Made by a program: the position numbers and the translations under genes. A stretch of DNA of 39,906 nucleotides from Candidatus Poribacteria bacterium (GTDB lineage Bacteria > Abyssobacteria > SURF-5): assembly GCA_016215705.1 (NCBI GenBank), contig JACRIR010000121.1, forward strand, positions 1 through 39,906. The letters run 5' to 3'. Under the pieces are notes generated by a model. The model ran no database searches. It saw only the letters and a program-made list of their open reading frames with translations, and was not told the DNA's origin. Positions 7,217-36,904 of the stretch are shown here, in pieces. Positions within the stretch are counted from its first letter, which is position 1; the number at the start of each line of letters is the position of its first letter.

Positions 7217-8515
7217 CTAGCCGTGGGCCTTGAAATTCTCTTCGTACCAGGTTTTCCATTTCCCGACGTCGGACCCGTAGGGTCTGTGTGTTATCTCTTC
7301 GAGAACCGAGAGCGCGCGTTTGGCCTGGGCCACGTTTGGACTATCGATGACATTTATGAGCGCGTGAACGGATTGCAGCTCGCCCATGTTGACCAATGCC
7401 ACTGCGGCATTGTCAGCAACCGTGCTGTCGGCGTCGCCCAAGGCTTCGACCAATTCATTGATCACGGACGCATCCGCAGCGTTTACAAGGGCCTGTGACG
7501 CTTGACGACGCACGATGGCCGCGCGATCTTTCAACGCGCCCGCCAGCGCGCGGGTCGCAGAGGGGTCTTTGGTCGCTCCGAGCGATGCCGCTGCTTTCGA
7601 GCGGACATTTGCGCTCGGGTCGGACAACAATCCAACCAACGCCTGGACAGCTTCCGGCGTCTTAATCTCGCCGAGCGCTACTGCGATGTCGGTCCGCACG
7701 GATTCAGTTTCGTGCGGAATCGCGTCAACAAGCGCGCTAACCGCGTATTCACTCCCGACTTTCCCGAGGGCTGACGCGATCATGCGGCGGACGTTCTCAT
7801 CGCTTTCACGTTGCATCGCGATTGCAAGCGCCTTACCCGCAGCCGGGTCCTTCACGTTTCCGAGCGCGATAGCCGCGTACTTCCTTGCCTTAGGTTCTTC
7901 GTCATTCAGGCCCTGAACGAAAATATCCCGGCTTGAGGGAGAGCCTATCTCATACAATGCGTATATAACCTCGCCGCGGACGTTCTTGTCCTTGTCGGCA
8001 GCCATGCTTTCGAGACTCTTGACGACACCCCTGTTCTCCTTCGTCCCAAGTCTTCCGAGCACATAGGCCGAATACTCGCGAACACGGGGATTCAAATGAG
8101 TCGTATCCTCAATGAGCGCAGGGAAAATGCTCTCGTCGCCGATTTTTGCCAGGGATTCCGCCGCAGCCTTCTGGACAACCTCTTCGCGGTCTTTCAGCGC
8201 ATTCAAGAGATTAGGGAGTGCTTCCTTGGCTCCGCGTTCGCCGAGCAGCTCGGCGGCGTAACGGCGCTGATATCTAAGCTCGGCGTGCTCAAGCGCGTGC
8301 GCAAGTTGAGAGGTCGAGCATGAGGGGTCCACAAGGACAGGGTCTGCCTTTCCCTGGTTTTGGGCAACAATCACGCGAGCCTCCACGGATTCGGCGACGG
8401 AACAAGAAGCCGGCCGGGGCGCGCCGGCTGACACCAGGAGGACAACCGCACACGCCAGGAAACCTGATTTCCACTCTCTAGCATTCGATGAACTTGCCGG
8501 TTCAGAATTGTTCAT
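7217..8515 (-). CDS. Secreted HEAT/PBS-lyase-like repeat protein
   Basis: A 432-residue protein with an N-terminal signal sequence (SGFLACAVVLLVSAGAP). Most of the rest is HEAT/PBS-type alpha-helical repeats such as ALPNLLNALKDREEVVQKAA, EPKARKYAAIALGNVKD and DPSANVRSKAAASLGATKD, around eight to ten units of about 31 residues. Such solenoids bind proteins. The Cys near the signal cleavage site (RPASC) is not a clean lipobox. Start ATG 8515 was chosen over an upstream ATG because the signal peptide follows directly and AAAAGG lies upstream. A strong promoter sits at 8589-8616. Its partner is unknown. Confidence 0.85.
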   Translation of the reverse strand: MNNSEPASSSNAREWKSGFLACAVVLLVSAGAPRPASCSVAESVEARVIVAQNQGKADPVLVDPSCSTSQLAHALEHAELRYQRRYAAELLGERGAKEALPNLLNALKDREEVVQKAAAESLAKIGDESIFPALIEDTTHLNPRVREYSAYVLGRLGTKENRGVVKSLESMAADKDKNVRGEVIYALYEIGSPSSRDIFVQGLNDEEPKARKYAAIALGNVKDPAAGKALAIAMQRESDENVRRMIASALGKVGSEYAVSALVDAIPHETESVRTDIAVALGEIKTPEAVQALVGLLSDPSANVRSKAAASLGATKDPSATRALAGALKDRAAIVRRQASQALVNAADASVINELVEALGDADSTVADNAAVALVNMGELQSVHALINVIDSPNVAQAKRALSVLEEITHRPYGSDVGKWKTWYEENFKAHG

Positions 8516-8588
8516 GCTTAAGTTGCCTTTTCGGAAAACAGTTTTTTCACTTATCTGTCCGACACGCCTTTGCTCTATTCTTCTTACA

Positions 8589-8616
8589 ATTATACAAGTT
8601 GTCCGCAAAAAATCAA
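8589..8616 (-). promoter_or_regulatory. Sigma-70 type promoter for the HEAT-repeat gene
   Basis: On the minus strand TTGATT (8616-8611) and TATAAT (8594-8589) are 16 bp apart. The -10 matches consensus perfectly. The untranslated leader would be about 65 nt. Confidence 0.65.
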
Positions 8617-8654
8617 GAAGCATCCGGTTCACGAGGAGCGATTTCATTTTGTGC

Positions 8655-11040: not shown

Positions 11041-11490
11041 GTGCCGAAAGCAATTGTGGACTCATCGACCATAAGGGGAAAGTATTCCGTTGTAGAGCAC
11101 ACGGCTGATATTGGAATTGTGGTGAAGGCCTCGAGCAAGGAGGAGGTGTTTGCCCTTGCAGCTTGCGCGATGTTTGACCTTATGGTTGATATTTCGAAGG
11201 TAAGGCCGACGCAGAAGGCAGAGATCAGTGTCGAAGCCGGTTCTCTCGAAGAGTTGATGGTCACATGGCTCAACGAATTGGTTTACAGGGCCGAGGTCAG
11301 CGGGATGTTCTTCAGCAGGTTTGAAGTTAACTCCGTCAGTGACAGGTCATTGACGGCGACGGCGAAAGGCGAGCCCTACAACGAAAAGGAGCACCCGCTG
11401 GGCGAGAATGTGAAGGCGGCGACGTATCATCAGCTCGATGTTTCTCGCAGCGGCCCGGAATGGATCGCCAAAATCATATTCGACGTGTGA
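11041..11490 (+). CDS. Archease (RtcB activator)
   Basis: A 149-residue archease. These small acidic proteins bind metal and help the RNA ligase RtcB form its guanylate intermediate and turn over. EHTADIGIVVKA is the signature near residue 19, LEELMVTWLNELVY the central helix and GENVKAATYHQLDV the C-terminal motif, while the ending AKIIFDV is typical. GTG 11041 is preceded by AAGGAG at 7 bp. The rtcB gene follows 20 bp downstream, the usual partner arrangement, so both names support each other. Confidence 0.93.
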   Translation: MPKAIVDSSTIRGKYSVVEHTADIGIVVKASSKEEVFALAACAMFDLMVDISKVRPTQKAEISVEAGSLEELMVTWLNELVYRAEVSGMFFSRFEVNSVSDRSLTATAKGEPYNEKEHPLGENVKAATYHQLDVSRSGPEWIAKIIFDV

Positions 11491-11510
11491 AAAAAGAGGA
11501 TGCTTTCCCA

Positions 11511-12959
11511 ATGATAGAGGTCAAGATTGAAAAGAAAGGTGAATACGTCTACGAGATCAACAAGTCGGGACCGATGCGTGTGCCCGCCCGCATATATGCC
11601 GACGATGAGTTGATGAAGGACATATCGAAAGATAAAAGCCCTGAGCAGGCAGCGAACGTGGCAACGCTTCCCGGGATCGTCAAGTACTCACTGGCCATGC
11701 CTGACATCCATTGGGGCTACGGATTCCCCATCGGCGGAGTCGCCGCCACCGATCCTAATGAAGGCGGAATCATATCGCCTGGCGGGGTGGGCTACGACAT
11801 CAACTGCGGCGTTCGCATGATGCGGACCAATCTAAGAATCCAGGACATAAGGCCAAAACTCCGCGAGCTCGTGATGAATCTGTTCCAGACGATTCCTACG
11901 GGCGTCGGGGCGAAGGGGGCCATCGAGAAGGTGAGCCCTTCGGAGCTTCGCAAATTGGTTGTAAAGGGGTCCGGATGGGCGGTCAATCGAGGATTTGGCT
12001 ACGAAGAAGACGTCGGCCATACAGAGCAACAAGGATGTTTGAGCGGGGCTGACCCCGACAAGGTCAGCGAGCATGCGATTGAACGCGGACTTGCCCAGGT
12101 CGGCACACTTGGCTCGGGCAACCACTTCCTCGAGGTCGGCATGGTGGAGGAGATATATCATCCCGAGGCTGCCCGCTTGTTTGGACTCGAGGAAGGAACC
12201 GTGACGGTGCTGATACATTGCGGTTCCCGTGGGTTTGGATACCAGGTTTGCGACGACTACCTGAAGGTGATGTCGCATGCGGTCGAGAGATACAAGATTG
12301 ATCTGCCCGACAGGCAGTTGGCATGCGCGCCGGCGGACTCAGAGGAAGGCAAAGACTATATCGCAGCAATGGCCGCCGCTGCAAACTACGCCTGGACAAA
12401 CCGGCAGGTAATAATGCATCTGGCCCGTCTTGCGTTTGAGAAGTCGCTCGGGATGAGCCCGCAAGCCATAGGGATGAGACTGATATATGACGTCTGCCAC
12501 AATATTGCGAAATATGAGAAACATTCCGTCAACGGCAAGCAGCTTATGGTGTGGGTGCACCGCAAGGGCGCCACACGCGCGTTTCCGCCCGGTCATCCCG
12601 AAATACCAGCCGAATATCGATCTATCGGGCAGCCGGTTCTCGTTCCGGGCGACATGGGCAGAGCGTCTTACTTGTGTGTGGGCGCTCAAGGCGCGATGGA
12701 GCTTACTTTCGGCTCGACGTGCCACGGGGCGGGCCGAGTGCTCAGTCGCTCAAAGGCCATCAAAGCCGGCAAGGGGCGCTCCATCAAGCGCGAACTTGAG
12801 GACAAGAACATCATTGTGATGGCGCATGGCCGTGAGACTCTGGCCGAGGAGATGCCTGAAGCATACAAGGACGTAAGCCGCGTCGTGAACGTGATGCATG
12901 AGGCAGGCATCGCGCTTCGCGTAGCGCGGCTGAAGCCGGTCGGAGTCATCAAAGGGTGA
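11511..12959 (+). CDS. rtcB: RNA-splicing ligase RtcB
   Basis: A 482-residue GTP- and Mn-dependent ligase that joins RNA 2',3'-cyclic phosphate or 3'-phosphate ends to 5'-OH ends, used in tRNA splicing or RNA repair. GGVGYDINCGVR contains the metal-binding Cys99. GSGNHFLEV, HCGSRGFGYQ and CHNIAKYE give the metal and active-site His residues. TCHGAGRVLSR contains His405, the residue expected to be guanylated (equivalent to H404 of the archaeal enzyme). ATG 11511 starts MIEVKIEKKGEYVYEI as in homologues; earlier in-frame starts overlap archease. Length is normal for the family and there is no intein. Confidence 0.95.
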   Translation: MIEVKIEKKGEYVYEINKSGPMRVPARIYADDELMKDISKDKSPEQAANVATLPGIVKYSLAMPDIHWGYGFPIGGVAATDPNEGGIISPGGVGYDINCGVRMMRTNLRIQDIRPKLRELVMNLFQTIPTGVGAKGAIEKVSPSELRKLVVKGSGWAVNRGFGYEEDVGHTEQQGCLSGADPDKVSEHAIERGLAQVGTLGSGNHFLEVGMVEEIYHPEAARLFGLEEGTVTVLIHCGSRGFGYQVCDDYLKVMSHAVERYKIDLPDRQLACAPADSEEGKDYIAAMAAAANYAWTNRQVIMHLARLAFEKSLGMSPQAIGMRLIYDVCHNIAKYEKHSVNGKQLMVWVHRKGATRAFPPGHPEIPAEYRSIGQPVLVPGDMGRASYLCVGAQGAMELTFGSTCHGAGRVLSRSKAIKAGKGRSIKRELEDKNIIVMAHGRETLAEEMPEAYKDVSRVVNVMHEAGIALRVARLKPVGVIKG

Positions 12960-13007
12960 AGAGAACGTGAAGCGTCTCTTCAATAGCGGCGGAGGGAGTT
13001 GTTCGAA

Positions 13008-13355
13008 ATGACGATTATTAAAGGATATTCCTTCGGCGTTGTGAGCGTCGACGGCACAAAGTATGAAAGAGATATCATAATTTATCCTGATAGGATTCAA
13101 TCCGAATGGTGGCGCAAAGAGGGCCACATGCTCCGACTCGAGGATATCGGCGACGTGCTCGCAAATCCTCCCGAAGTATTTGTGGTGGGCCAGGGGGACC
13201 AGGGGAGGATGCTCATTGAGTCCCGTTTGGTCGACGAGATGAAGAAGATTGGGGTCGAGCTGGTGTCGGCGCCGACCAAGCTTGCATGCGAGAAGTTCAA
13301 TGAGTTTTCGCGACAAGGCAGGCATGTTGTGGCCGCGCTCCATTTGACGTGCTGA
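13008..13355 (+). CDS. Mth938/DUF498-domain protein
   Basis: A 115-residue protein of the Mth938-like (DUF498, NDUFAF3-related) fold. The order of conserved blocks is clear: IIIYPDRIQSEWWRKEGH near residue 25, EDIGDVLANPPEVFVVGQG, a middle GRMLIESRLVDEMKKIGVEL, then ACEKFNEFSRQG and the signature ending AALHLTC. Its biochemical role is not established. ATG 13008 has GGAGGGAG 9 bp upstream, better than TTG 12999. It sits 48 bp after rtcB and before a macro-domain gene, so probably belongs to the same transcription unit. Confidence 0.85.
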   Translation: MTIIKGYSFGVVSVDGTKYERDIIIYPDRIQSEWWRKEGHMLRLEDIGDVLANPPEVFVVGQGDQGRMLIESRLVDEMKKIGVELVSAPTKLACEKFNEFSRQGRHVVAALHLTC

Positions 13356-13431
13356 TTGGAGCGGAAGACACTAGGTCCGTGGAGAATGGAGAAACGCGAA
13401 CGGCCGAATTTCTCTCAGAAGGGAGATGAAC

Positions 13432-13965
13432 ATGAAAGTCAAGGTAGGCAAGGGAGAAATCGAAGTCATACGCGCAGACATAACAACGCTCGAGGTTGGG
13501 GCAATCGTCAATGCCGCCAATAATCATTTGATCCTGGGCTCGGGCGTAGCCGGCGCCATAAGAACGAGGGGAGGCCCGAGCATTCAGGAGGAGTGTAATC
13601 GGATAGGCTCAATCAAAGTGGGCGAGGCCGCGATAACCGGCGGGGGCAGACTTCCGGCAAAGCACGTTATCCACGCCGCGAGCATGGGCGACGAGCCGGT
13701 TTCCGAGAGGTCGCTCCGAGATTCGGTTCGCAACAGCCTCTTGAAGGGTGAAGAGGCCGGCATCGCGTCCATAGCGTTTCCTGCGATCGGCACAGGCGTG
13801 GGCGGTTTTCCCGTGAAGCGCTGCGCAGAAATCATGATATATCTCGCCGAGCAGCATCTTAAGGGAGACTCCCGAAGCATCAGGCACGTCATTTTTGCGC
13901 TATTCGGAGAATCCGACAAGAAAGTCTTCGAGGAGGCGCTATCCTCACGGGCAAAGCAAGTCTGA
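13432..13965 (+). CDS. Macro-domain protein (ADP-ribose binding/hydrolase)
   Basis: A 177-residue single macro domain. IVNAANNHLILGSGVAGAI is the ADP-ribose distal-ribose and diphosphate-binding loop, AITGGGRLPAKHVIHAAS the middle block, and AIGTGVGGFPVKRCAEIM the second phosphate loop. Macro domains bind or hydrolyse ADP-ribose, O-acetyl-ADP-ribose or ADP-ribose 1''-phosphate, the last being a by-product of tRNA splicing in eukaryotes. ATG 13432 was chosen since AGAAGGGAG abuts the earlier ATG 13426. Being downstream of archease and rtcB suggests a link with RNA end processing, but that is inference. Confidence 0.9.
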   Translation: MKVKVGKGEIEVIRADITTLEVGAIVNAANNHLILGSGVAGAIRTRGGPSIQEECNRIGSIKVGEAAITGGGRLPAKHVIHAASMGDEPVSERSLRDSVRNSLLKGEEAGIASIAFPAIGTGVGGFPVKRCAEIMIYLAEQHLKGDSRSIRHVIFALFGESDKKVFEEALSSRAKQV

Positions 13966-14087
13966 CTTTCTTCGTATTTAATCGAAGCTGTGTGGCATTG
14001 ATCGCTTGACAGGTTTTCCTATCTGAATCTGTCCGAGATCGTGTGCGTGACGTTTTGAACTCGAGAAATCCCGGCGGAAGGCACTGC

Positions 14088-17000
14088 ATGCCACCGATCT
14101 TCTTCAAGACATTGAAAGCCTTGCTTCTCATCTTTCTGCTAGTGTGCCTTCCCTCAGACTCCTCGGGGGATACAACAAATTCCCCAAGAGAAATCCATCT
14201 CTGGCATCAATGGACGGGCAGCAGGCGGGAGATTCTTGAATCCATCATCAAGGACTTCAACTGCTCGCACGCGGACGTCCGTGCGCATGCCGAGCTATTT
14301 GGTCCTGCCGGGGGAACCATAGCCGAACGAATGCCGGCGGGGACCGCCTCCACCGAAACACAAGGATTGCCGGATATCGCGCTGGTTGAACGTCAGGCAA
14401 TTCCTCTGCTTGCTGACTCGGACGCCATAGCATCTCTAGACGAGTTCATTGAGTCCTCTGCTGCACTCAAAAAAGAAAGCTTTTTCGACAATGCATTCGC
14501 GTATGGCGCCTTCAACGGCAAACTCTACGGGATACCTGTAACTCTCAACCCATTTGTGCTCATATACAACCCGAATCTTCTTTCGGAATATGGTCTCTCC
14601 GAGCCGCCTGAGGAGTGGGATGCATTAGCCGGCCTCGCAAAAGCGGTCAACGCTCATATGACGGATCACCCCGGGGACAGACAGCGGGTATTGAGCGTGC
14701 GATCGATGGCCATTCTTTTCGACATCCTGTGTCTGCAAAAGGGAATAGACTTGTGTGCTCTGAACAGCAATCCTGAGAATATCGCCGCTATAAGAGACAA
14801 TCTCGGTTTTGTCCGCGAACTAAGACGCAACGGTTCGCTGCCGCCTGCTCAGTACAAGTTCTGGGATCCGAATTTCATGGGGATCGCGGGAGGAGATGTG
14901 TTGTTTCAGATAGATGACGCTGCGATGCTTGCCGATCTAACCGAAGAAACGTCCTTCCCGCTTTCAGTCGGTCCGGTTCCTGACAGCGCATCCATGCGCC
15001 AAACGCTTCTGTCGGAGAGCGCGGTGTTCGTAGTTTCCAAAACCGTCAGTGATTATTCCGCGATATTGGAATTCCTCGAATTCTTCTATTTACCCAGGCA
15101 ATACGCCCGTTTCGCGAGAGAACTTCTGTTCGTTCCACCATTAACGCAAACACTTCCGGCTGTCGAGGTTATGCTTTCAGACAGGCCGCTCTACGGACAG
15201 CTCGCGGGCGCCGCCGTGAGAGCCGGCTCATTTCCGCTCCGCAAAGAAAGCGGACGAGCGCTCTCAGAAATCGCGCGTGCGATAGAGCGACTTGATGCCG
15301 GTCTGATTTCGGAAGAGCAAGCGATCGCGGATATTCAGAATGCGGACGAACATAAAAGCAAGGTAGAGTCAAAGGTCTCAGGCCCACGCATTCGCGTGAC
15401 ATGGGCCGAGAGCACACGCAGGCTCCGGGCCACCGACGCAGGCGGTCCAAAGGATTTCCCGATTGAGATTGCTTGCGCGAGAAACGAGCACGAGACCTTC
15501 CAGTTGGCCCTCAGCGCCGACAGCGCGGTCGACGGATTGACGGTAACGTTGGCGCCTTTCACTTCGTCAGACGGCAGATCCTGCGAGATTAAGGCGTTGA
15601 CCTACCTCGAAGAGGACACACTTATTTCCACTCCTCTGGTTGCAGAGACAAAAGGGCTTTATCCGAATGTTCTGCGGCGCCGGGACGTATTCGACGTAGT
15701 TCCCGGAACGCTGACGCGGATATGGGTCGATGTCTTTGTGCCAAGGGAAGTCGCGCCCACGCGATATCACTCCCGGCTCACAATAGCTCATGAAGGCATG
15801 GACCCTGTCGAAGCGCCGGTTCAACTCGACGCACTGCCGATGACGCTTCCGACAACTCCGTCTCAGCCGGCCGTTGTCGGGCTGAACTATGACCTGACAG
15901 CAAAGCGCTACGACCTGAAGGAAGGAACGGATGAGCGGCTAAGACTGGAGGATTCTTTTTACTGGTTTCTTGTGGAACACAGGTTGTCGCCCTATCAGCC
16001 GCCGGTTCCACTCGATGATGCGCGTATCGCTCGCTACCTGCAAGACGAGCGCGTCTCGTCTTGCAGAATACCTTTTCCCCCGGATGACCCAAGGTTTAAG
16101 AGAGTGATTTCACTGGCAGCGGACGGCGGCTGGCTGGAGAAGCTCTTTGTGTATTTCATCGATGAGCCCACCTATCATCAGTATGAGGCGATAATTAGTA
16201 CGGGGAAGATGATCCGCTCGTTTCCGCTGTCTCCGAAGTTCCTGGTCACATGCTTTCCGGATCAATTCCTGCTTGGCGCAGTCGATATATGGTGCATCCA
16301 CATGCAGTTCCTGCCCGAGGGTATCCCGCGCAGTTTTGTGGACCGGCAAAGGAACTTCGACGCCGTGAACCGCCGCTTAGATGCGGGAGACGAGGTGTGG
16401 TGGTATACTGCGGGCGCAGTGAAGCCGTTCCCTACACTCCAGATAGAGGATGATCCGCCCGCGTTCAGAATCATAGCATGGCTTCAGCAACTTTATGGCA
16501 TCGGAGGTTTTCTTCATTGGGAGACTGCCAATTGGCGCCAGCCGATCGATGAACCCTTTATTCCACAGTTCGGCAACGGCGAAGGTGTGCTCATATATCC
16601 CGGCGATGGTCTGCAACCGGCCCCTTCAATCCGGTTGGAGCTGCTTCGCGAGGGCATGGAGGACATGGAGTTCCTCATGCTGCTCCGCCGCAACGTTCGG
16701 GCCGTTCAAGAAAAATTGGCGGCAGAGAAGTTTGGAGACGTGGCGTCAGGCAGGGTTCGGGAGATGTGTCGGGCGCTGGTCTCAGATGAAGTGTTGCGGG
16801 CTGAACCATTCGACGACTTGTCGGCGCAATCCCATTTCATTCGCGAACCCGGACTCATAGAACGGGTGCGAATGGACGTTGTCAAAGAGATACTTGCGCT
16901 GGAGAAGAAACCCCTGGCTCTGGTGTTGACGCAGCCGGAGGAAAAGAGCTACACTCAAGCGTTGGAGGCGCGCATATACGGCATCGCGGAACGGGGTTCC

Positions 17001-17153
17001 AAGGTCGAGATCAATGGCCGCAGGCTCGCAGTCAGTCAAGCCGGTGAATTCTCGGCGCAGTTTCCGCTTTCAAGGGGAGCCAACGCATTTCGTATTCGCC
17101 TTGAGAAGGGACGAGATATCAAGACCGTCATCAGATATATACAAAGGTTTTGA
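14088..17153 (+). CDS. Secreted fusion: ABC solute-binding protein + GH123/DUF4091-like hydrolase + C-terminal beta domain
   Basis: A 1021-residue protein. A signal peptide (FFKTLKALLLIFLLVCLPS) is followed by a family-1 solute-binding domain (about 33-420: IHLWHQWTGSRREI, GIPVTLNPFVLIYNP, ESAVFVVSKTVSD). After a charged linker, a beta-sandwich from about 434 (RIRVTWAESTRRLRA, ARNEHETFQLAL) leads into a DUF4091/GH123-type barrel. Its VYFIDEPTYHQYE carries the Asp692-Glu693 pair that GH123 beta-N-acetylgalactosaminidases use. GGFLHWETANW, GEGVLIYPG and LREGMEDMEFLMLLRR complete the DUF4091 pattern. The last 80 residues resemble a bacterial Ig/glucodextranase-B-like domain. ATG 14088 has GGAAGG upstream. 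Substrate-binding and hydrolase parts are normally separate proteins, so the fusion is notable. The next gene follows without a gap. Confidence 0.8.
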   Translation: MPPIFFKTLKALLLIFLLVCLPSDSSGDTTNSPREIHLWHQWTGSRREILESIIKDFNCSHADVRAHAELFGPAGGTIAERMPAGTASTETQGLPDIALVERQAIPLLADSDAIASLDEFIESSAALKKESFFDNAFAYGAFNGKLYGIPVTLNPFVLIYNPNLLSEYGLSEPPEEWDALAGLAKAVNAHMTDHPGDRQRVLSVRSMAILFDILCLQKGIDLCALNSNPENIAAIRDNLGFVRELRRNGSLPPAQYKFWDPNFMGIAGGDVLFQIDDAAMLADLTEETSFPLSVGPVPDSASMRQTLLSESAVFVVSKTVSDYSAILEFLEFFYLPRQYARFARELLFVPPLTQTLPAVEVMLSDRPLYGQLAGAAVRAGSFPLRKESGRALSEIARAIERLDAGLISEEQAIADIQNADEHKSKVESKVSGPRIRVTWAESTRRLRATDAGGPKDFPIEIACARNEHETFQLALSADSAVDGLTVTLAPFTSSDGRSCEIKALTYLEEDTLISTPLVAETKGLYPNVLRRRDVFDVVPGTLTRIWVDVFVPREVAPTRYHSRLTIAHEGMDPVEAPVQLDALPMTLPTTPSQPAVVGLNYDLTAKRYDLKEGTDERLRLEDSFYWFLVEHRLSPYQPPVPLDDARIARYLQDERVSSCRIPFPPDDPRFKRVISLAADGGWLEKLFVYFIDEPTYHQYEAIISTGKMIRSFPLSPKFLVTCFPDQFLLGAVDIWCIHMQFLPEGIPRSFVDRQRNFDAVNRRLDAGDEVWWYTAGAVKPFPTLQIEDDPPAFRIIAWLQQLYGIGGFLHWETANWRQPIDEPFIPQFGNGEGVLIYPGDGLQPAPSIRLELLREGMEDMEFLMLLRRNVRAVQEKLAAEKFGDVASGRVREMCRALVSDEVLRAEPFDDLSAQSHFIREPGLIERVRMDVVKEILALEKKPLALVLTQPEEKSYTQALEARIYGIAERGSKVEINGRRLAVSQAGEFSAQFPLSRGANAFRIRLEKGRDIKTVIRYIQRF

Positions 17154-17200
17154 ACTTGATCACGATCAAATCCGGATTTGTCGTCGCCGAAACCGAGAAT

Positions 17201-17755
17201 ATGCGCAGACGGCGCGCGTGGGCATGTGCAGCCGCTATGATGTCGGTTATTCTCCTCTCACTGCCCATAACTCCATTCCTTTGGAGAAAGGCCGTGGAGG
17301 TCTTCGGACCGCAGTTCAACATTTTGGGCTACTTCGTTCTGGTCGTTCTTGCCCTTGTTTTTGCCATCTACGCGGTGCGACGCCGCGATAGGCTCGAGCG
17401 TTCGAGCGTCTTTGTGCTCGGCGGTCTTGCAGTGATTTACTATTGGCTCCTGAGATACCATTGTCGATTTCCGGCCGAGCGCCTTCATCTGTTTGAATAC
17501 GGATTGCTCGCGTATTTGCTGTACCGCGCGCTCAGGTATGATTTTCCGGAAATGAAGGCATACTCATTGGGATTCTCGATCTCATCTCTTTTCGGATTGC
17601 TTGACGAGATTATTCAACATTTCCTCCCAAACAGGGTGTTCGAGTGGAGGGACGTGGCGACAAATGTGATCGCCTCGGCGCTGGGTCTCGTTATTACATG
17701 GCTGCTTTTCAGGGAAACATCTCGGCCGGTCACATCGTCCGAGACAACCATATGA
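17201..17755 (+). CDS. VanZ-like membrane protein
   Basis: A protein of about 184 residues with four to five membrane segments and the VanZ-like signature: RLHLFEYGLLAYLLYRAL, then LLDEIIQHFLPNRVFEWRDV, then a last helix ASALGLVITWLLF. The acidic residues in the helical hairpin are conserved in the family; the activity is undefined (VanZ itself gives low teicoplanin resistance). The start is uncertain. ATG 17201 gives a usual basic N-terminus, but TTG 17150 overlapping the previous stop, or TTG 17156 with AAAGG upstream, would couple it to the fusion gene. The stop overlaps the next ATG (ATGA). Confidence 0.75.
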   Translation: MRRRRAWACAAAMMSVILLSLPITPFLWRKAVEVFGPQFNILGYFVLVVLALVFAIYAVRRRDRLERSSVFVLGGLAVIYYWLLRYHCRFPAERLHLFEYGLLAYLLYRALRYDFPEMKAYSLGFSISSLFGLLDEIIQHFLPNRVFEWRDVATNVIASALGLVITWLLFRETSRPVTSSETTI

Positions 17756-19458
17756 GATTGCGCAGAATCATACGGACTGCCGCCGTAATCATCTTTCTCA
17801 CCTTCGTTCTCCTTCTGAATGCGCCGCCTTTGAAGAGCCGGGCGCCCACCGGCGTCAACGTGATCCTGGTCACGGTTGATTCGCTCAGGGCGGATCACAT
17901 GGGATGTTACGGTTATCATAAGATGACAACTCCCAACATCGACGCCATCGCCGAAAAGGGCGCCTTATTTCGCCGCGCCTACAGCCAATCCGCGTGGACG
18001 TTTCCCGGATTGATGTCGATCTTGACATCGCTTCAGCCGCCCGTCCATCAGGTGGATCAGCGCGGCAGGACGCTTGATCCAAACATCAAGACGATTTTCG
18101 ACTGCTTTCGCGAGGCAGGATACGCGGTCCCGAACATATGTTTCTTGCTCACGCTCCCCGAGTTTTCCACCATTCGGGTCGGGCCGGTCGAGGAGAAGTA
18201 TTTTCATGGGGGTGACGGCGAAGAGATATTTCACTGGCTCGATGAGAATCGTGAGTCTAAGTTCTTCCTCTGGTACCACTACAGAGAGGTCCATCTTCCA
18301 TACAAGCCAAAAGAGGGCTCGCGTTCGATGTATTTTCCGATTCTGCCCGCCGACAGCGAACTCTCGCCCGGCATAAAGGCTGTCCTTTCCGAAACTGCGG
18401 TCGCCCCTGTCGGAACAGTCAAGTTCGAGGAAGCGGACATGCCGATTATTAAGGGTCTTTATGACGCGGAGGTGAGAGAGTTCGATTCCTTCTTCGCCCG
18501 CTTGTACGCGAGGCTGCAGAAATACGGATTGCTCAAAAAGACGCTCATCGTTGTAACCGCTGACCATGGAGAGGAGTTGATGGACCACGGGTTCGTCGGC
18601 CACGCTTCGACGATGCACTCGGCCACATTATATGATGAGGTTATGCGGATTCCGCTCATTATGAGTTGGTCCGATTATCTGCCGCCCTGCGAGATTCGAG
18701 AACAAATCCAACAAGTCGACATCATGCCTACGATTCTCGAAATTGTGGGCATCCCGGTTCCCTCGGGAGTTCAGGGCAGGAGTCTTGCGCCCATGATCTT
18801 TGACACACGAAAACGAAATGAATCCAGCGTGCCGGTCTTTGCAGAGACCATCTACGGCGGCTTTCAGGCGGATGAGGAAATGGCAAAGACGCGGCTGAGA
18901 TGTGTCCGCACCGATGCGTGGAAGCTGATCGAGACCGATACACCGGAGGCGAAAACGTTTCAGTTGTTCGACTTGCTCACCGACCCGAAAGAGATCAGGA
19001 ACGTATTCGACGAGAACACCCAAACATCTGCCGCGCTTCGAACATTGCTCCTGGAGTGGAGGCGTGAGAACATGGCGAGAAAGGGCGCCATCGTGGATGC
19101 GGGCGGAACGGTCCCTCGGGGAGACAGTTTCCCCGCCTGTCCGCAGATGCTTTTTCCGTATGACGGCGTCGTTCTCCGGTATCAGGAGAGGAACGGGACG
19201 ATACGGGCCTCATGGGTCGGAAGTCCCAATTCATCCTACGTCATTGAATATGACATAGGACAAGGAGTCCACCATCTCTCGGGATCATTTGTGACGTTCG
19301 GAAACGAGCGTATCTTCGGGCCGTATTCGCGGGAAATCTGGAGCGCGCTGGCGGCGCGCAATCCGTGGCGCATCAGGGTTTCACCCGACACAAATCCACG
19401 TTGTTGGAGTGAGTGGGTGCAGTTGGAGTTCGAGCACGAGAATGGCAGGACTCATTGA
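17752..19458 (+). CDS. Sulfatase-like (alkaline phosphatase superfamily) membrane-anchored hydrolase
   Basis: A 568-residue protein with an N-terminal signal anchor (AAVIIFLTFVLLLNAP) and a sulfatase-fold domain. ILVTVDSLRADHMGCYGY provides the metal Asp residues (D43, D48). AYSQSAWTFPGLMSIL occupies the nucleophile position: it has T83, not the C/S-x-P-S-R formylglycine motif. VVTADHGEELMDHG gives the second metal site. About 100 C-terminal residues form a beta-rich appendix (GTIRASWVGSPNSSYVIEYD). It could hydrolyse sulfate, phosphate or phosphodiester bonds, and the missing Cys argues against a classical sulfatase. ATG 17752 overlaps the VanZ-like stop by four bases, so translation is coupled. 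Confidence 0.82.
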   Translation: MRLRRIIRTAAVIIFLTFVLLLNAPPLKSRAPTGVNVILVTVDSLRADHMGCYGYHKMTTPNIDAIAEKGALFRRAYSQSAWTFPGLMSILTSLQPPVHQVDQRGRTLDPNIKTIFDCFREAGYAVPNICFLLTLPEFSTIRVGPVEEKYFHGGDGEEIFHWLDENRESKFFLWYHYREVHLPYKPKEGSRSMYFPILPADSELSPGIKAVLSETAVAPVGTVKFEEADMPIIKGLYDAEVREFDSFFARLYARLQKYGLLKKTLIVVTADHGEELMDHGFVGHASTMHSATLYDEVMRIPLIMSWSDYLPPCEIREQIQQVDIMPTILEIVGIPVPSGVQGRSLAPMIFDTRKRNESSVPVFAETIYGGFQADEEMAKTRLRCVRTDAWKLIETDTPEAKTFQLFDLLTDPKEIRNVFDENTQTSAALRTLLLEWRRENMARKGAIVDAGGTVPRGDSFPACPQMLFPYDGVVLRYQERNGTIRASWVGSPNSSYVIEYDIGQGVHHLSGSFVTFGNERIFGPYSREIWSALAARNPWRIRVSPDTNPRCWSEWVQLEFEHENGRTH

Positions 19459-32355: not shown

Positions 32356-32387
32356 AGATTTGAGGTTTCTTGAAAGGAGAGTCTAAG

Positions 32388-33638
32388 ATGCCGCGCGTGC
32401 TCGGGGATAAGCGTGGGTTCACCCTAACTGAACTTCTGGTGGTGGTCGCAATCATAGTCCTTTTAGTATCGATAGTTGTCCCGAACATAGCGGGCCGCCT
32501 GACCACGGCGCGCATGCACTCGGTCGAGGATCAGATTGCCGAGATTGAGGCCGCTCTTGCGGCATATCATGCCGACTTCGGGACGTATCCGGGCGACGTG
32601 TGGCCCACGGAGGACAAGAATAACGATGGTGTGTTGACGAATGAGGACGTCGATGATGACGATGTTCTGGACGCGACCGAAGACCTCAACAACAATGGCG
32701 CGCTGGACAACGAAGATATCGGCGTTGACGTGGACAGAGATGGCATTTCCGACTACGCCTGCAGCAGCACCGGCGGGCATGCGCACAACGGTCGGCTTGA
32801 CCACGGCGACGGCGTCATAAACATTCTCGACCTCGAGTGGGCTCTGAAAACCACCGCGAAAAACGGCCCTTATATGGAAGATATCCCCCTTGATGCGTGG
32901 GATAATAAATACGTCTATTATGCCCCGATGGACAGACCGCAGGGAACAGCGGCAGACCAGGATTTCCTTTGGATAAATCCGTCCGAAGTCGGCGACCTCA
33001 TTACCACGGAGGACGCAAACGGTAATGGCCGCCTGGACACCGGAGAGGATACGGGAATTGCCGACTACGATGTCAATACCGCCCTGAATCCTAACGTTCG
33101 CACCAACGCCACGAGCTTCCTCGATATGAGTGCCGGCGCCGGTAACGGAGTGCTTGACCGCGGCGATGATGACAATGGGAATGGAACTATCGAGAGGTAT
33201 AACATAACGACTGCCTCGCCGGTAGTGCTTGAGTACGGCAACAAGGACGTTTCGCCTGACGGCCTCGCTCGGAATGCCGGCTACTACGTTTACTCGGTCG
33301 GCAGAAACAGGAAAGACGAGACGGCCATCGGCTATGAAGATATCAACAGGAACGATCAACTCGATGGATCAATCACGACCGACAGCGGCGCATTTGATGA
33401 AGACAGCATCAGCAATGACGACACGCTTGACACCGGCTACGAGGACACCGGACTCGACGGAATTCCCGGCACCAAGGATAACGGCGAGGATGACGGCAAA
33501 CTCACAATAGGCACTGACTCGCCACCGGTCTCGTCTGAGGACTTTGACGGCGATAATGAACTTGATATCGGCGGCGACGACATGAATAGCTGGAACAAGA
33601 AGCAGCCGTGGCGCGAACACAAGAGCTATGGAGGATAA
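32388..33638 (+). CDS. GspG-like major pseudopilin, enlarged with Ca-binding-like loops
   Basis: A 416-residue prepilin-like protein; GspG is normally about 140-150 residues. The leader MPRVLGDKR ends at RG|FTLTELLVVVAI, with Glu5 present. The helix and NIAGRLTTARMHSVEDQIAE followed by ALAAYHADFGTYPGD are typical GspG. The rest is spread out by acidic 12-residue loops of EF-hand or dockerin pattern (DxNxDGxLxxxD): DKNNDGVLTNED (from about 76), DLNNNGALDNED (about 99), DANGNGRLDTGE (about 209), DINRNDQLDG (about 318). ATG 32388 has AAAGGAG 7 bp upstream. It is the first gene after the sigma-54 promoter and should be cleaved by a prepilin peptidase and act in a secretion pseudopilus. Confidence 0.88.
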   Translation: MPRVLGDKRGFTLTELLVVVAIIVLLVSIVVPNIAGRLTTARMHSVEDQIAEIEAALAAYHADFGTYPGDVWPTEDKNNDGVLTNEDVDDDDVLDATEDLNNNGALDNEDIGVDVDRDGISDYACSSTGGHAHNGRLDHGDGVINILDLEWALKTTAKNGPYMEDIPLDAWDNKYVYYAPMDRPQGTAADQDFLWINPSEVGDLITTEDANGNGRLDTGEDTGIADYDVNTALNPNVRTNATSFLDMSAGAGNGVLDRGDDDNGNGTIERYNITTASPVVLEYGNKDVSPDGLARNAGYYVYSVGRNRKDETAIGYEDINRNDQLDGSITTDSGAFDEDSISNDDTLDTGYEDTGLDGIPGTKDNGEDDGKLTIGTDSPPVSSEDFDGDNELDIGGDDMNSWNKKQPWREHKSYGG

Positions 33639-33642
33639 TTCC

Positions 33643-33733
33643 GATTTTGGATTGCGGATTGCGGATCTTGGATTGAGAAGAAGAGACAAACCGCAGGAAC
33701 GCAAAGGAGAATAGACCACAAAGGTCACGGATT
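33643..33733 (+). repeat. Mixed dispersed repeats after the first pseudopilin
   Basis: A GGATTG/TTGGATTG array (33643-33680), ACCGCAGGAACGCAAAGGAG (33690-33709) and GGTCACGGATTTGGG (about 33723-33737), separated by purine-rich stretches. The 33639-34159 gap holds only repeats and a hairpin. Confidence 0.5.
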
Positions 33734-33761
33734 TGGGAAAAGAAAGAGAAAAGGATCGGGG

Positions 33762-33830
33762 AGCCACAGAGGTCACTGAGAAGAAATAGCAGAATCGGTA
33801 TTCTATGTGCGCTCCGTGCTCTTTGTGGCT
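33762..33830. repeat. Solo inverted-repeat element (AGCCACA arms)
   Basis: The 19-nt arm at 33762-33780 (AGCCACAGAGGTCACTGAG) is inverted at 33812-33830 with 15 of 19 matches, around a 31-nt loop. Confidence 0.55.
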
Positions 33831-33842
33831 AGCGGATTGAGG

Positions 33843-33875
33843 AATCCAAAATCTAAAATCTAAAATCCAAAATCC
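33843..33875 (+). repeat. Seven-base tandem repeat (AATCCAA-like)
   Basis: Units AATCCAA / AATCTAA repeat with a 7-base period about 4.7 times. The same unit forms the leader codons of the last pseudopilin (36913-36944). Confidence 0.7.
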
Positions 33876-33897
33876 CAAGAGCCCTTTCCCCGGGTAA

Positions 33898-33955
33898 CAC
33901 CGGGTCCGGGCGACTTGAGCGGTCTGAAAAGGCTGCTCCCGCGCCAGACCCGGTG
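33898..33955 (+). repeat. Long GC-rich hairpin between pseudopilin genes
   Basis: CACCGGGTC (33898-33906) pairs perfectly with GACCCGGTG (33947-33955). Inside, GGCG pairs with CGCC and GAGC with GCTC. TATTATTAAG follows. It could be an attenuator or RNA-processing stem that sets different expression before and after it; the following run is A/T-mixed, not a T-tract. Confidence 0.5.
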
Positions 33956-33975
33956 TATTATTAAGCAAAAGACCG

Positions 33976-34000
33976 GAATCCGCAGATTTGCGCGGATTGG
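33976..34000 (+). repeat. CGCAGATTTGCGCGGATT dispersed repeat
   Basis: AATCCGCAGATTTGCGCGG followed by ATTGG. A close relative stands at 36672-36703 and a shorter one near 29861. Confidence 0.5.
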
Positions 34001-34037
34001 ACTACACCACGAAGACATCACGGAAAAAAAAGAGATG

Positions 34038-34107
34038 AACCACCAAGGTACGAAGACACAAAGTAAAGCAAAAGAAAAAGGAAAGTCTCTTTGATGCCTT
34101 GGTGGTT
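34038..34107. repeat. Solo inverted-repeat element (AACCACCAAGG arms)
   Basis: AACCACCAAGG (34038-34048) is perfectly inverted as CCTTGGTGGTT (34097-34107) around a 48-nt loop that is purine-rich on the left. ACCACGAAGACATCACGG (about 34005) abuts it on the left. Confidence 0.65.
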
Positions 34108-34120
34108 GAAATGCTTTTTG

Positions 34121-34156
34121 ATCAGTGAAAATCAGCGAAATCTGCGGATAAAAGAG
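34121..34156 (+). repeat. ATCAGTGAAAATCAGCG ... GCGGATAAAAG repeat before the second pseudopilin
   Basis: Ends three bases before the ATG at 34160. The near-identical 36868-36903 ends directly before the ATG at 36905. Its AAAAGAG may also act as ribosome site. Confidence 0.6.
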
Positions 34157-34159
34157 CCT

Positions 34160-34987
34160 ATGAAGAAACGCGGTTATACAATTGTCGAGATGATGGTGGT
34201 GCTGGCTATCATAGCGCTCATGATGGCCATAGTCGTCCCGCGTTTCGCAGTATCTCAAAAGGGCGTGGCGCTTAAGGGCGCTTCTCAGGAGGTGATGTCG
34301 GCGCTCCGCACCGCGCGCCGGCTGGCGATACTCGGCATAAGGGATATCAGCCAGGCGACCCAGATGTACGCGGTCGCGTTCGATATATATTCCGTTCCCG
34401 CCCGGTTCGCCGTCATTCGCAAGACGGGCTCGGCGAGCGATTGGAATTCGTGGCAGATTACTTATGATTTCAAGGACTTGCCGGAGAACATCGCGATCGC
34501 GGCGATCAACCAGCCCGGCTATACCGCGTTCAACGTGACCAGAACCGATGACAATACTCTTGATGGCGTCGAGGATTCTCTATCAAGCGACCTGATATGG
34601 AACCCACAGGCGCCTTCGGCCGGGAACGGGATCACGAATATTGTGTACCGGCTCGTAAAGTTCCGGCCCACGGGAACGGCAGACCCCGTCATAATCTATC
34701 TCTGGAACACAAAAGAGGGGAGACAGGAGATTCCGAATCCGACAGTCGGCATGACGCTCTCCAACTTGCACACACTCGGCGTGCCACCCGGCCTGCAACT
34801 CGACGATCTGAATGATCAACAAAGCTTCTTGCGGCTGCCGAGCGAGGTATCGACATTCGATTCGTACTACTACACGATCGTCGTCAGCTCGATAACCGGC
34901 AGCGTTACCGTCTACGATTATGCATGGGGTGAGGGCGGTGGAACAACGCCGAACATGAGATGGGACCGCAAGAAAGACGGATCGTAA
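34160..34987 (+). CDS. GspH/FimT-like minor pseudopilin
   Basis: A 275-residue prepilin-like protein with a short leader MKKRG|YTIVEMMVVLAIIALM, Glu5 present, and the GspH/FimT-type continuation QEVMSALRTARRLAILG, longer than the usual 170-200 residues. The body is predicted beta-rich and lacks the acidic loops seen in the other three. ATG 34160 is the only start with a normal leader. It is second in the operon, as H follows G in standard type II secretion loci. Repeat 34121-34156 directly precedes it. Confidence 0.85.
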   Translation: MKKRGYTIVEMMVVLAIIALMMAIVVPRFAVSQKGVALKGASQEVMSALRTARRLAILGIRDISQATQMYAVAFDIYSVPARFAVIRKTGSASDWNSWQITYDFKDLPENIAIAAINQPGYTAFNVTRTDDNTLDGVEDSLSSDLIWNPQAPSAGNGITNIVYRLVKFRPTGTADPVIIYLWNTKEGRQEIPNPTVGMTLSNLHTLGVPPGLQLDDLNDQQSFLRLPSEVSTFDSYYYTIVVSSITGSVTVYDYAWGEGGGTTPNMRWDRKKDGS

Positions 34988-35000
34988 GAAGAGGTTCGAA

Positions 35001-35592
35001 CACGAATGTCACCAATGGAACACGGATAGCATGAATGAATCAAGAAGAGGATTTGGATCACAAATATCACAAATGGAACGGATGACACGAATGGAAGTGA
35101 AATCTGAAAAAGAACTCCTCTGTGGAGATCTCTCATACGAAATTATTGGCGCGGCGATGGAAGTTCACAACGCTCTTGGGCCGGGATTTACTGAGAACAT
35201 TTATGAAGAAGCGCTTTGTGTTGAACTGGGAAACAGAAGGATCAAGCTCGATCGTCAGAAAGCCATCATGGTAAATTACAAAGGCGTTAATGTGGGCGAC
35301 TACGTTCTGGATATGATAGTCGAAGGCAGGATCATATTGGAACTCAAAGCTACCACAGAACATAGTCCCATCTTTGACGCACAGATTTACTCGTATTTGA
35401 GGGCCACTGGACTCAAGCTTGGGCTCTTGATAAATTTTGGAGCCCAAAAGCTGTCGCACAAGAGGATCGTGAATTGAATCCTTCTATTTCACATATTGGT
35501 TTTTCTCAAGACGAAGTTATTCGTGATATTCGTTCCATTCGTGTGATTCGTGATCCCTTTTCTTCTTCTTCCATTCGTGCGATTCGTGATCC
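35001..35592. mobile_element. Putative GxxExxY element 1 with nested inverted repeats
   Basis: The GxxExxY gene (35091-35477) lies between two tiers of inverted repeats. Inner arms 35055-35094 and 35517-35556 match at 31 of 40 positions when inverted (core AATGGAACG). Outer arms start CACGAATGTCACCAATGGAA (35001-35020) and are inverted within about 35563-35582 (17 of 20). Between the tiers the left side has a purine tract (AAGAAGAGG) and the right side its complement (CTTTTCTTCTTCTTCC). The gene's ATG lies in the left inner arm, and the right arms are read through as the leader of the next pseudopilin. Target duplications were not identified. Confidence 0.55.
35091..35477 (+). CDS. GxxExxY protein (PD-(D/E)XK nuclease-like), copy 1
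   Basis: A 128-residue protein of the GxxExxY family (Pfam PDDEXK_3-like). The name motif is G32-F-T-E35-N-I-Y38 in LGPGFTENIYEEAL, preceded by IGAAMEVHNALG. A nuclease-type triad is visible as D74 (YVLDMIV), E84 and K86 (IILELKAT), with the C-terminal YLRATGLKLGLLINFG. No substrate is established for the family. Base use is more A/T-rich than in the neighbours. It interrupts the pseudopilin operon, starts inside an inverted repeat, and its TGA overlaps the TTG opening the next frame. The second copy (39123-39494) is clearly diverged, so this is not a recent duplication. Confidence 0.85.
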   Translation: MEVKSEKELLCGDLSYEIIGAAMEVHNALGPGFTENIYEEALCVELGNRRIKLDRQKAIMVNYKGVNVGDYVLDMIVEGRIILELKATTEHSPIFDAQIYSYLRATGLKLGLLINFGAQKLSHKRIVN

Positions 35593-36661
35593 CGGTTTCA
35601 CCCTTCTGGAAGTTCTGATCTCGATGGCGATCATCGGGGTGGGCCTGATTGCGCTCGTGTCGTTGTTCCCGGTCGGGCTGCGCTCCTCGAGGCTCGCGGG
35701 CGACTTTACGACCGCTGCGCTCATCGGCCAGCAGGCGCTCGACAACATACGCGCCACGGCGCAGGTGTATGATCCGGCGGATATGTTCGACGAGGATAAC
35801 GACGGCGACCGATTCGACGATCCCAATGGCGACGGTCTCGGTTACTATGACCTTCCGATTTCCGCTGTGAAAGGCTTTCTCTCCCCTCTCCGGTTCCCCA
35901 CGGAGCCCACACAGTCGCAAACGTTGACAATAGAAATCACAGGCGTCGGCCCTCCTGCAACATTTTCGGTGACGAGTTCCATTTCGGGCGCTGTAGGCAC
36001 AGGATCGGCTGGCTCGCTTTTCACCTCGAGTGACAACGCAGTTGCATTCATCCTCTCTGACAACGTGGACGGTCCTGCTTTGACAGTGACCCCCGCCTAT
36101 TCGTCCCCGACGGACAGAAATTATGAAGAATTCGCCGTCGGCGACAAGATCGTTGTCAGCCTCGAGATGCGCGGAGGCAATCCCTATTATTGGTACGCGA
36201 TGCGCGCGCCAGTGACGGAGGATTTGGACCTCGATGGGATTCTCGACGGACGCCTCAATGACGGAACTGCGAACGGGACGCTCCGAAGCGCTCCACACAA
36301 TCAGGTGCAAGAGGACACCGGGCTTGATCTTCTGCCGGATTTCTGGGACCGGAACAACAACGGCTCATATCAGGCCGGGATCGATCAGCGGGGCGAATGG
36401 ACGCAGTCAGCGGCGCTTCCGGCTCCTCCCGCGGTCGAGATTGACTTACACGGCGACAACCGATATGCGTATGACACGACCACGGGATGGTGGCTAAGCC
36501 CCTTGGCCGAAGTTAATGCTGCCGGAACGGAAGGCAATGAGCAGATTGACGCATGGGACGACGATTCGATGCAGAAGGTGACGGTCACGGTTGGTTGGCG
36601 CGAGGGCAGCCAGGACCGCGCGGCCGTATTCAGCGCGTCGATAGCGAATCAGTACAGGTAA
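35474..36661 (+). CDS. GspI/PilV-like minor pseudopilin with a repeat-encoded leader
   Basis: Up to 395 residues; GspI is usually about 120-130. The mature part starts PG|FTLLEVLISMAIIGVGL with Glu5 and continues ALVSLFPVGLRSSRLAGDFT and ALIGQQALDNIRA. Acidic loops follow: DEDNDGDRFDD (about 106), DLDLDGILDG (about 252) and DRNNNGSYQAGID. The leader is written by ATTCGTGAT-type repeats and reads as IRDIRS, IRVIRDPF and IRAIRDP. The start may be TTG 35474, overlapping the GxxExxY stop, or GTG 35543, giving a 17-residue leader; neither has a clear ribosome site. The third of four pseudopilins, it is probably translated by coupling to the GxxExxY gene. Confidence 0.82.
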   Translation: MNPSISHIGFSQDEVIRDIRSIRVIRDPFSSSSIRAIRDPGFTLLEVLISMAIIGVGLIALVSLFPVGLRSSRLAGDFTTAALIGQQALDNIRATAQVYDPADMFDEDNDGDRFDDPNGDGLGYYDLPISAVKGFLSPLRFPTEPTQSQTLTIEITGVGPPATFSVTSSISGAVGTGSAGSLFTSSDNAVAFILSDNVDGPALTVTPAYSSPTDRNYEEFAVGDKIVVSLEMRGGNPYYWYAMRAPVTEDLDLDGILDGRLNDGTANGTLRSAPHNQVQEDTGLDLLPDFWDRNNNGSYQAGIDQRGEWTQSAALPAPPAVEIDLHGDNRYAYDTTTGWWLSPLAEVNAAGTEGNEQIDAWDDDSMQKVTVTVGWREGSQDRAAVFSASIANQYR

Positions 36662-36671
36662 GAAGAAGATG

Positions 36672-36903
36672 AATCCGCAGATTGCGCAGATTTACGCGGA
36701 TTTCGAGAATGAAGAAAGAGAAAGAAAAGAGGGATTTGGAATCACGGACTACACTGATTACAGGGATTCTGGGAAACGAGAAGAAGAAAAGGAAAAAAGT
36801 CATTAACCACGGATTCACACGGATTTTCACGGATTCTTGGGGAAGAAGGAAGAGAAAAGGTCTTGCTTGATCTGTGAGAATCAGCGTAATCAGCGGATAA
36901 AAG
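36672..36903 (+). repeat. Four-unit dispersed-repeat block between the third and fourth pseudopilins
   Basis: CGCAGATTGCGCAGATT (about 36676), AATCACGGACTACACTGATT (36740-36759), a triple ACACGGATT-like array starting TTAACCACGGATT (36803-36836), and GAGAATCAGCGTAATCAGCG then GATAAAAG (36868-36903). Each unit is followed by a purine-rich spacer such as GAGAAGAAGAAAAGG. There is no gene. Confidence 0.65.
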
Positions 36904-36904
36904 T

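Follow-up and report, generated by a model that had tools for sequence, protein, structure and literature searches.

What does a sugar-binding protein of the ABC-transporter type do when it forms a single chain with a glycoside hydrolase? The question is raised by one gene in a 39,906-nucleotide stretch of DNA from Candidatus Poribacteria bacterium (hereafter the window), whose product joins a solute-binding protein (SBP) to a GH123-type hydrolase.

Layout and conservation of the fusion

The first-pass annotation of this DNA had described one continuous frame with an SBP domain, a beta-sandwich, a barrel and a C-terminal beta domain, and this layout and its coordinates were borne out (Table 1). 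The ORF listing gives a longer frame with a GTG start (14043-17153). The ATG at 14088 yields a protein of 1,021 amino acids, and this codon is preceded at a distance of six bases by GGAAGG. The N-terminus is hydrophobic in all three orthologues, which makes a secretion signal and export of the protein plausible; a canonical lipobox was not seen when the N-terminus of the fusion was read by eye.

Table 1. Features of the fusion gene and its neighbours in the window
Feature	Position	Strand	Basis
Archease and RtcB RNA ligase genes, conserved upstream neighbours	11041..12959	+	Pfam; gene order in relatives
Macro-domain protein upstream of the fusion	13426..13965	+	Pfam; similar-looking ORF there in G002, by eye
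GGAAGG, probable ribosome-binding site, 6 bases 5' of ATG	14076..14081	+	Read from sequence
SBP-GH123 fusion gene, 1,021 aa	14088..17153	+	Frame, Pfam, orthologues
N-terminal hydrophobic segment (residues 1-31), probable secretion signal	14088..14180	+	Sequence; hydrophobic in 3/3 orthologues
Solute-binding domain (residues ~32-425), including SBP-like helical C-terminal end	14181..15362	+	SBP_bac_8/SBP_bac_1; 4r9f alignment
GH123-type N-terminal beta-sandwich (residues ~437-590), bearing N527 and W546	15396..15857	+	Profile alignments
GH123-type barrel and DUF4091 region (residues ~591-870)	15858..16697	+	GH123_cat
Catalytic pair D692-E693	16161..16166	+	Orthologue and PDB alignments
C-terminal beta domain, Glucodextran_B-like	16908..17150	+	Sub-cut-off Pfam match in window protein; 3/3 orthologues E <= 0.01
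VanZ-family membrane protein; TTG start overlaps fusion stop; alternative in-frame ATG 17201	17150..17755	+	PF04892, NF037970 above cut-off
Sulfatase-like protein of the alkaline-phosphatase superfamily; start at ATGA overlap with VanZ stop	17752..19458	+	PF00884, PDB alignments

Both halves are recognised by Pfam. SBP_bac_8 (residues 85-355, 63 bits) and SBP_bac_1 (residues 75-188) score above their cut-offs, as does GH123_cat (PF13320; residues 679-866, 57 bits against a cut-off of 23.1). Both Pfam models of the GH123 N-terminal sandwich gave weak scores, and Glucodextran_B (residues 945-1003) reached 24.4 bits in the window protein, below its cut-off of 27. SBP_bac_8, GH123_cat and Glucodextran_B each match all three orthologues with E <= 0.01. 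A single-sequence AlphaFold2 run on the fusion yielded no usable model (mean pLDDT 36, pTM 0.24).

Full-length orthologues without stops are present in the other two genomes of the family (G001 and G002; the window genome is G000), each of the three representing a different genus, and their identity to the window protein over the full chain is 50% and 46%. Homologues split near residue 425 had been named beforehand as the finding that would speak against a true fusion; both relatives encode the whole chain. That a frame error or an assembly join artificially fused two genes is thus practically ruled out, as the assemblies of three genera carry the identical stop-free, full-length architecture and the G+C content is flat across the junction of the two halves. 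Conservation differs between the parts: the orthologues are 59-64% identical to one another in the barrel, 43-51% in the C-terminal domain, 35-46% in the sandwich and 36-42% in the SBP domain, and the catalytic region is the best conserved part of all (66-69%). Since the SBP half is about as conserved as the sandwich, it appears to be retained and not decaying.

The solute-binding half and the permeases of the three genomes

The profile of the three orthologues aligns with the solved SBP 4r9f almost end to end (profile positions 4-419). With SBP_bac_1/8 above cut-off and most of a solved SBP aligned, the domain can be placed among the cluster-1-type SBPs (4r9f, 7bvt), nearly the whole length of which is covered. 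Such proteins usually have a permease nearby, whereas the SBP studied here is tied to a hydrolase and its cognate permease was not found.

The first-pass annotation had noted the absence of permease genes, and this agrees with our search: no ABC permease occurs in the fusion operon in G000, G001 or G002. The three genomes contain 10, 13 and 13 matches to BPD_transp_1 (PF00528) respectively; none of them adjoins the fusion, and none of the ten in the window genome lies on the contig of the window. NCBIfam assigns all ten, i.e. one MalFG/UgpAE-type pair, which has its own SBP fused to the permease, and eight of Pst, Opp and polar-amino-acid type. Of the 26 permeases of the two relatives (G001, G002), NCBIfam assigned seven to the Opp, amino-acid, molybdate or tungstate type and found no match for L099. 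The remainder were judged by eye on the beginning of the sequence and the genes alongside; each genome has two sugar-type pairs, and every pair adjoins an SBP. The SBPs themselves were searched with PF13416 only, which matched two proteins in G000 (the fusion and the permease-fused SBP) and three each in G001 and G002. In other words, no orphan cluster-1-type sugar permease was found among the PF00528 matches of the three genomes, which are 91-98% complete, so that one could have escaped detection.

These data bear on the idea that hydrolysis is coupled to import, i.e. that the SBP half docks on a distant cluster-1-type permease, receives the released oligosaccharide in its cleft and hands it over. 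The full-length, retained SBP domain and the second sugar permease pair of G001 and G002 speak for it, although this pair comes with an SBP of its own, and SBP-permease fusions in the lineage reveal a tendency to tie SBPs to their partners. We nevertheless consider import coupling unlikely: the operon is devoid of a permease in all three genomes, no orphan sugar permease is among the PF00528 matches, and the single MalFG/UgpAE-type pair of G000 looks like a peptidoglycan-sugar importer, because it has a fused SBP and shares its cluster with NagZ and AnmK.

The SBP-permease fusions deserve a note of their own. In G000, import systems for oligopeptides, polar amino acids and sugars each have the SBP and the permease in one chain (C211, L095; C262, L092; C59, L090), and such fusions are likewise present in G001 (C45, L107) and G002 (C138, L113). 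With three such systems in the window genome, the fusion of SBPs seems to be a habit of the lineage. As in the SBP-GH123 protein, the SBP is covalently joined to a partner, but there the partner is a membrane permease and here it is a glycoside hydrolase. The sugar system (G000 C59:1-10000; L090, L117) consists of the SBP-MalF/UgpA-type permease and a second permease, followed by a NagZ-type beta-N-acetylhexosaminidase and an anhydro-MurNAc kinase (AnmK); an ORF between them appears to resemble DUF1343. The cluster looks like one for the import and recycling of muropeptide sugars, and a similar one is found in G001 (C101, L109).

The hydrolase half

The GH123 family was enlarged in 2024 (Sumida et al. 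2024, PMC11087588), and we assigned PDB entries to the groups of that paper by the specificities described there. The three-orthologue profile matched NgaAt (Group 2) with E = 9.8e-25, NgaCa (Group 1) with 2.3e-23 and NgaDssm (Group 3) with 1.5e-20; the window sequence alone prefers NgaDssm, whereas the profile prefers NgaAt and NgaCa. Enzymes of Groups 1-3 (NgaCa 8k2f, NgaAt 8k2h, NgaDssm 8k2j) share with the fusion the beta-sandwich, the DUF4091 barrel, the Asp-Glu pair and eight of nine family-wide residues, and only the fusion has an N-terminal SBP and an Asn in place of a structural Asp. The classical GH123 exo-beta-N-acetylgalactosaminidases (CpNga123 5fqe, BvGH123 5l7r) have the clan and the Asp-Glu pair in common with it, but the profile match to BvGH123 (2.7e-9) is much weaker than that to NgaAt; chain 8k2l gave 5.4e-6. 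Judged by these comparisons, the hydrolase is closest to the beta-N-acetylgalactosaminidases and hexosaminidases of Groups 1-3, not to classical GH123.

The half had been labelled a GH123 beta-N-acetylgalactosaminidase. As far as the catalytic pair is concerned the label holds: D692-E693 is invariant in the three orthologues and aligns with the Asp-Glu of the solved enzymes, and the enzymes of the enlarged family use such a pair for substrate-assisted catalysis (PMC11087588). As a statement of specificity it is too narrow, because the nearest solved groups, 1-3, include oligosaccharide-releasing enzymes and a beta-hexosaminidase (PMC11087588). Specific contacts of Group 3 (NgaDssm-like) are W204, H479 and L485 (PMC11087588).

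Nine residues are common to all GH123 groups (PMC11087588). Mapped by alignment and spacing, they correspond to N527 (for D95 of NgaLy), W546, D692, E693, Y773, G807, W811, Y837 and R849. All nine positions are invariant in the three orthologues and eight keep the universal residue; the exception is the position of D95, which is Asn in all three. Among other GH123 relatives this position is Asp in 29 of 35 aligned rows and Glu in one, five rows having no residue there. Four genes were counted twice in these rows (L040/L066, L042/L068, L056/L069, L060/L070); per gene, 25 Asp and one Glu are found among the 26 that have a residue. In NgaLy, D95 is a structural Asp whose Ala mutant precipitated, and it bonds to the universal Tyr and Arg (PMC11087588). 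As both partners are kept in the fusion (Y837 and R849), Asn527 may still bond to them.

The presence of N527 where nearly all examined relatives have Asp would fit a protein whose hydrolase activity has been lost or changed and which now serves as a glycan sensor or scaffold on the surface or in the periplasm. We regard this as improbable, given that the Asp-Glu pair, Y773, G807, W811, Y837 and R849 are all retained, that the 66-69% identity noted above falls precisely in the catalytic region, and that the fusion lacks a receptor or signalling domain.

Neighbouring genes, distribution and proposed role

The order fusion, VanZ, sulfatase-like gene is the same in the three genomes, a conserved operon that the first-pass annotation had overlooked. 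The VanZ proteins of the relatives are 42-46% identical to that of the window and the sulfatase-like proteins 63-66%. ORFs resembling RtcB and archease precede the fusion in all three; the Pfam confirmation of both applies to the window alone. We know of no link of VanZ or sulfatase-like genes to GH123.

Formylglycine sulfatases carry the activation motif C/S-x-P-S-R, and Thr at the nucleophile position of the superfamily is found in phosphotransferases and phosphodiesterases. The sulfatase-like protein has Thr at this position (SAWTFPGL), all three orthologues reading T-x-P-G-L/I, whereas its solved relatives have there the S/C of S/C-x-P-S-R. Given the Thr and the Gly-Leu (or Ile) that replaces Ser-Arg after the Pro, the protein is probably not a formylglycine sulfatase. 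A Thr nucleophile would be expected to favour phospho- over sulfo-chemistry. At its C-terminus the protein is extended by a further conserved stretch of roughly 100 residues.

This Thr-type enzyme and VanZ suggest envelope chemistry, which would suit an SBP half that binds a non-sugar ligand, e.g. a glycerol-phosphate-type head group, in an operon that acts on an envelope glycan carrying lipid or phosphate and remodels it. Among NCBIfam models, UgpB fits the SBP half best, though far below its cut-off; the best PDB relatives that are named by their ligand are sugar binders, and we find this explanation hardly probable.

Further features of the window are recorded here in passing. Archease, RtcB and the macro-domain protein stand in a row (11041-13965) and form an apparent RNA-repair cluster; at 32370-38971 there are four proteins whose N-termini bear pilin-type methylation motifs, with a PDDEXK_3 protein between them (35031-35477); and the protein at 7217-8647 on the minus strand consists mostly of HEAT repeats.

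Full-length matches to the fusion profile were found in 3 of 649 distinct genomes (G000-G002), a search in which very different SBP fusions could be missed. The genomes came from sets of 386, 68, 195 and 7, the phyla outside that of the window being chosen because they hold GH123, and 2 to 12 candidates per genome were scored at cut-offs of 1e-10 to 1e-16 or 1e-20. GH123 alone is common in certain phyla, with 50 of 68 genomes in the phylum of G278 (at 1e-20) and 30 of 195 in that of G029 (at 1e-16). Scans with the window protein found no fusion in viral contigs, and none of the 66 plasmid records matched covered 80% of the query. The same scan of genome contigs gave a single locus with a match of 16 residues, which we judged spurious. 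A possible partner pathway, galacto-N-biose phosphorylase, was matched in none of the three family genomes, but in no control genome either, so that this negative carries no weight.

Other GH123 proteins do carry N-terminal additions. Pfam detected no SBP in eight long ones; Laminin_G_3 is present in two of them, CBM_4_9 in two (one protein has both) and GDSL in one. Seven N-termini, five from the phylum of G278 (G141 belongs to it) and two others, looked beta-rich and not SBP-like by eye. With local profiles, SBP and GH123 occurred together solely in the three orthologues among the fetched frames, and no SBP adjoined GH123 in 18 regions, a weak test made with one narrow profile. The laminin-G, CBM_4_9 and beta-rich modules precede the sandwich just as the SBP does in the fusion, but they have non-SBP folds. 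We note that the beta-rich N-terminal regions of L067, L069, L102, L103 and L106 (417-452 residues) look conserved among these proteins, and that the two scanned (L067, L069) had no Pfam match; this region of about 400 residues is possibly an undescribed accessory module.

An SBP-glycoside hydrolase fusion was not found in the titles and abstract openings of the open-access literature searched, nor in passages of PMC8812541 and PMC11212667. Both parts are known; their pairing appears to be new, as it was found neither in that literature nor in the other genomes searched.

We give a probability of about one half to the reading that the protein is an exported GH123-clan hydrolase, likely GalNAc-directed, which acts at the envelope or in the periplasm and in which a flytrap SBP serves as a glycan-capturing module. 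In a single exported chain, a Venus-flytrap sugar-binding domain would stand ahead of a hydrolase that cuts a beta-linked N-acetylhexosamine, GalNAc being the likeliest. Catalysis would be substrate-assisted, with the 2-acetamido group held by D692 and E693 acting as acid/base. The SBP half would no longer feed an ABC permease; it would be an accessory glycan-binding module that catches the glycan, or else the oligosaccharide set free by cleavage, and keeps it near the barrel. With co-expression and a shared function presumed for the VanZ-type membrane protein and the Thr-type sulfatase-like enzyme, the substrate would probably be a glycan that carries decorations and is located in the periplasm or the cell envelope. 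We prefer the binding-module reading because unrelated beta-rich or lectin-like modules fill the same N-terminal slot in other GH123 proteins, and the most economical reading is that the SBP took the place of such modules.

A bolder version is only tentative and, in our opinion, somewhat unlikely: that in one deep-branching lineage a flytrap taken from ABC transport became a closing, ligand-gated capture module for the attached beta-N-acetylhexosaminidase. If this were true, the flytrap, by binding its ligand and closing, would choose or retain the oligosaccharide and set the release pattern, within an envelope operon of the VanZ/phosphohydrolase type that is restricted to this lineage.

SBPs are regarded almost solely as feeders of importers or as inputs of sensors. 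A conserved pairing of an SBP with a glycosidase, lacking a permease of its own, offers a direct test of the flytrap fold as a carbohydrate-binding module, in a protein whose capture and cleavage can be measured apart and jointly. With the fusion, the recently enlarged GH123 family also gains a branch that is unusual in one interface residue.
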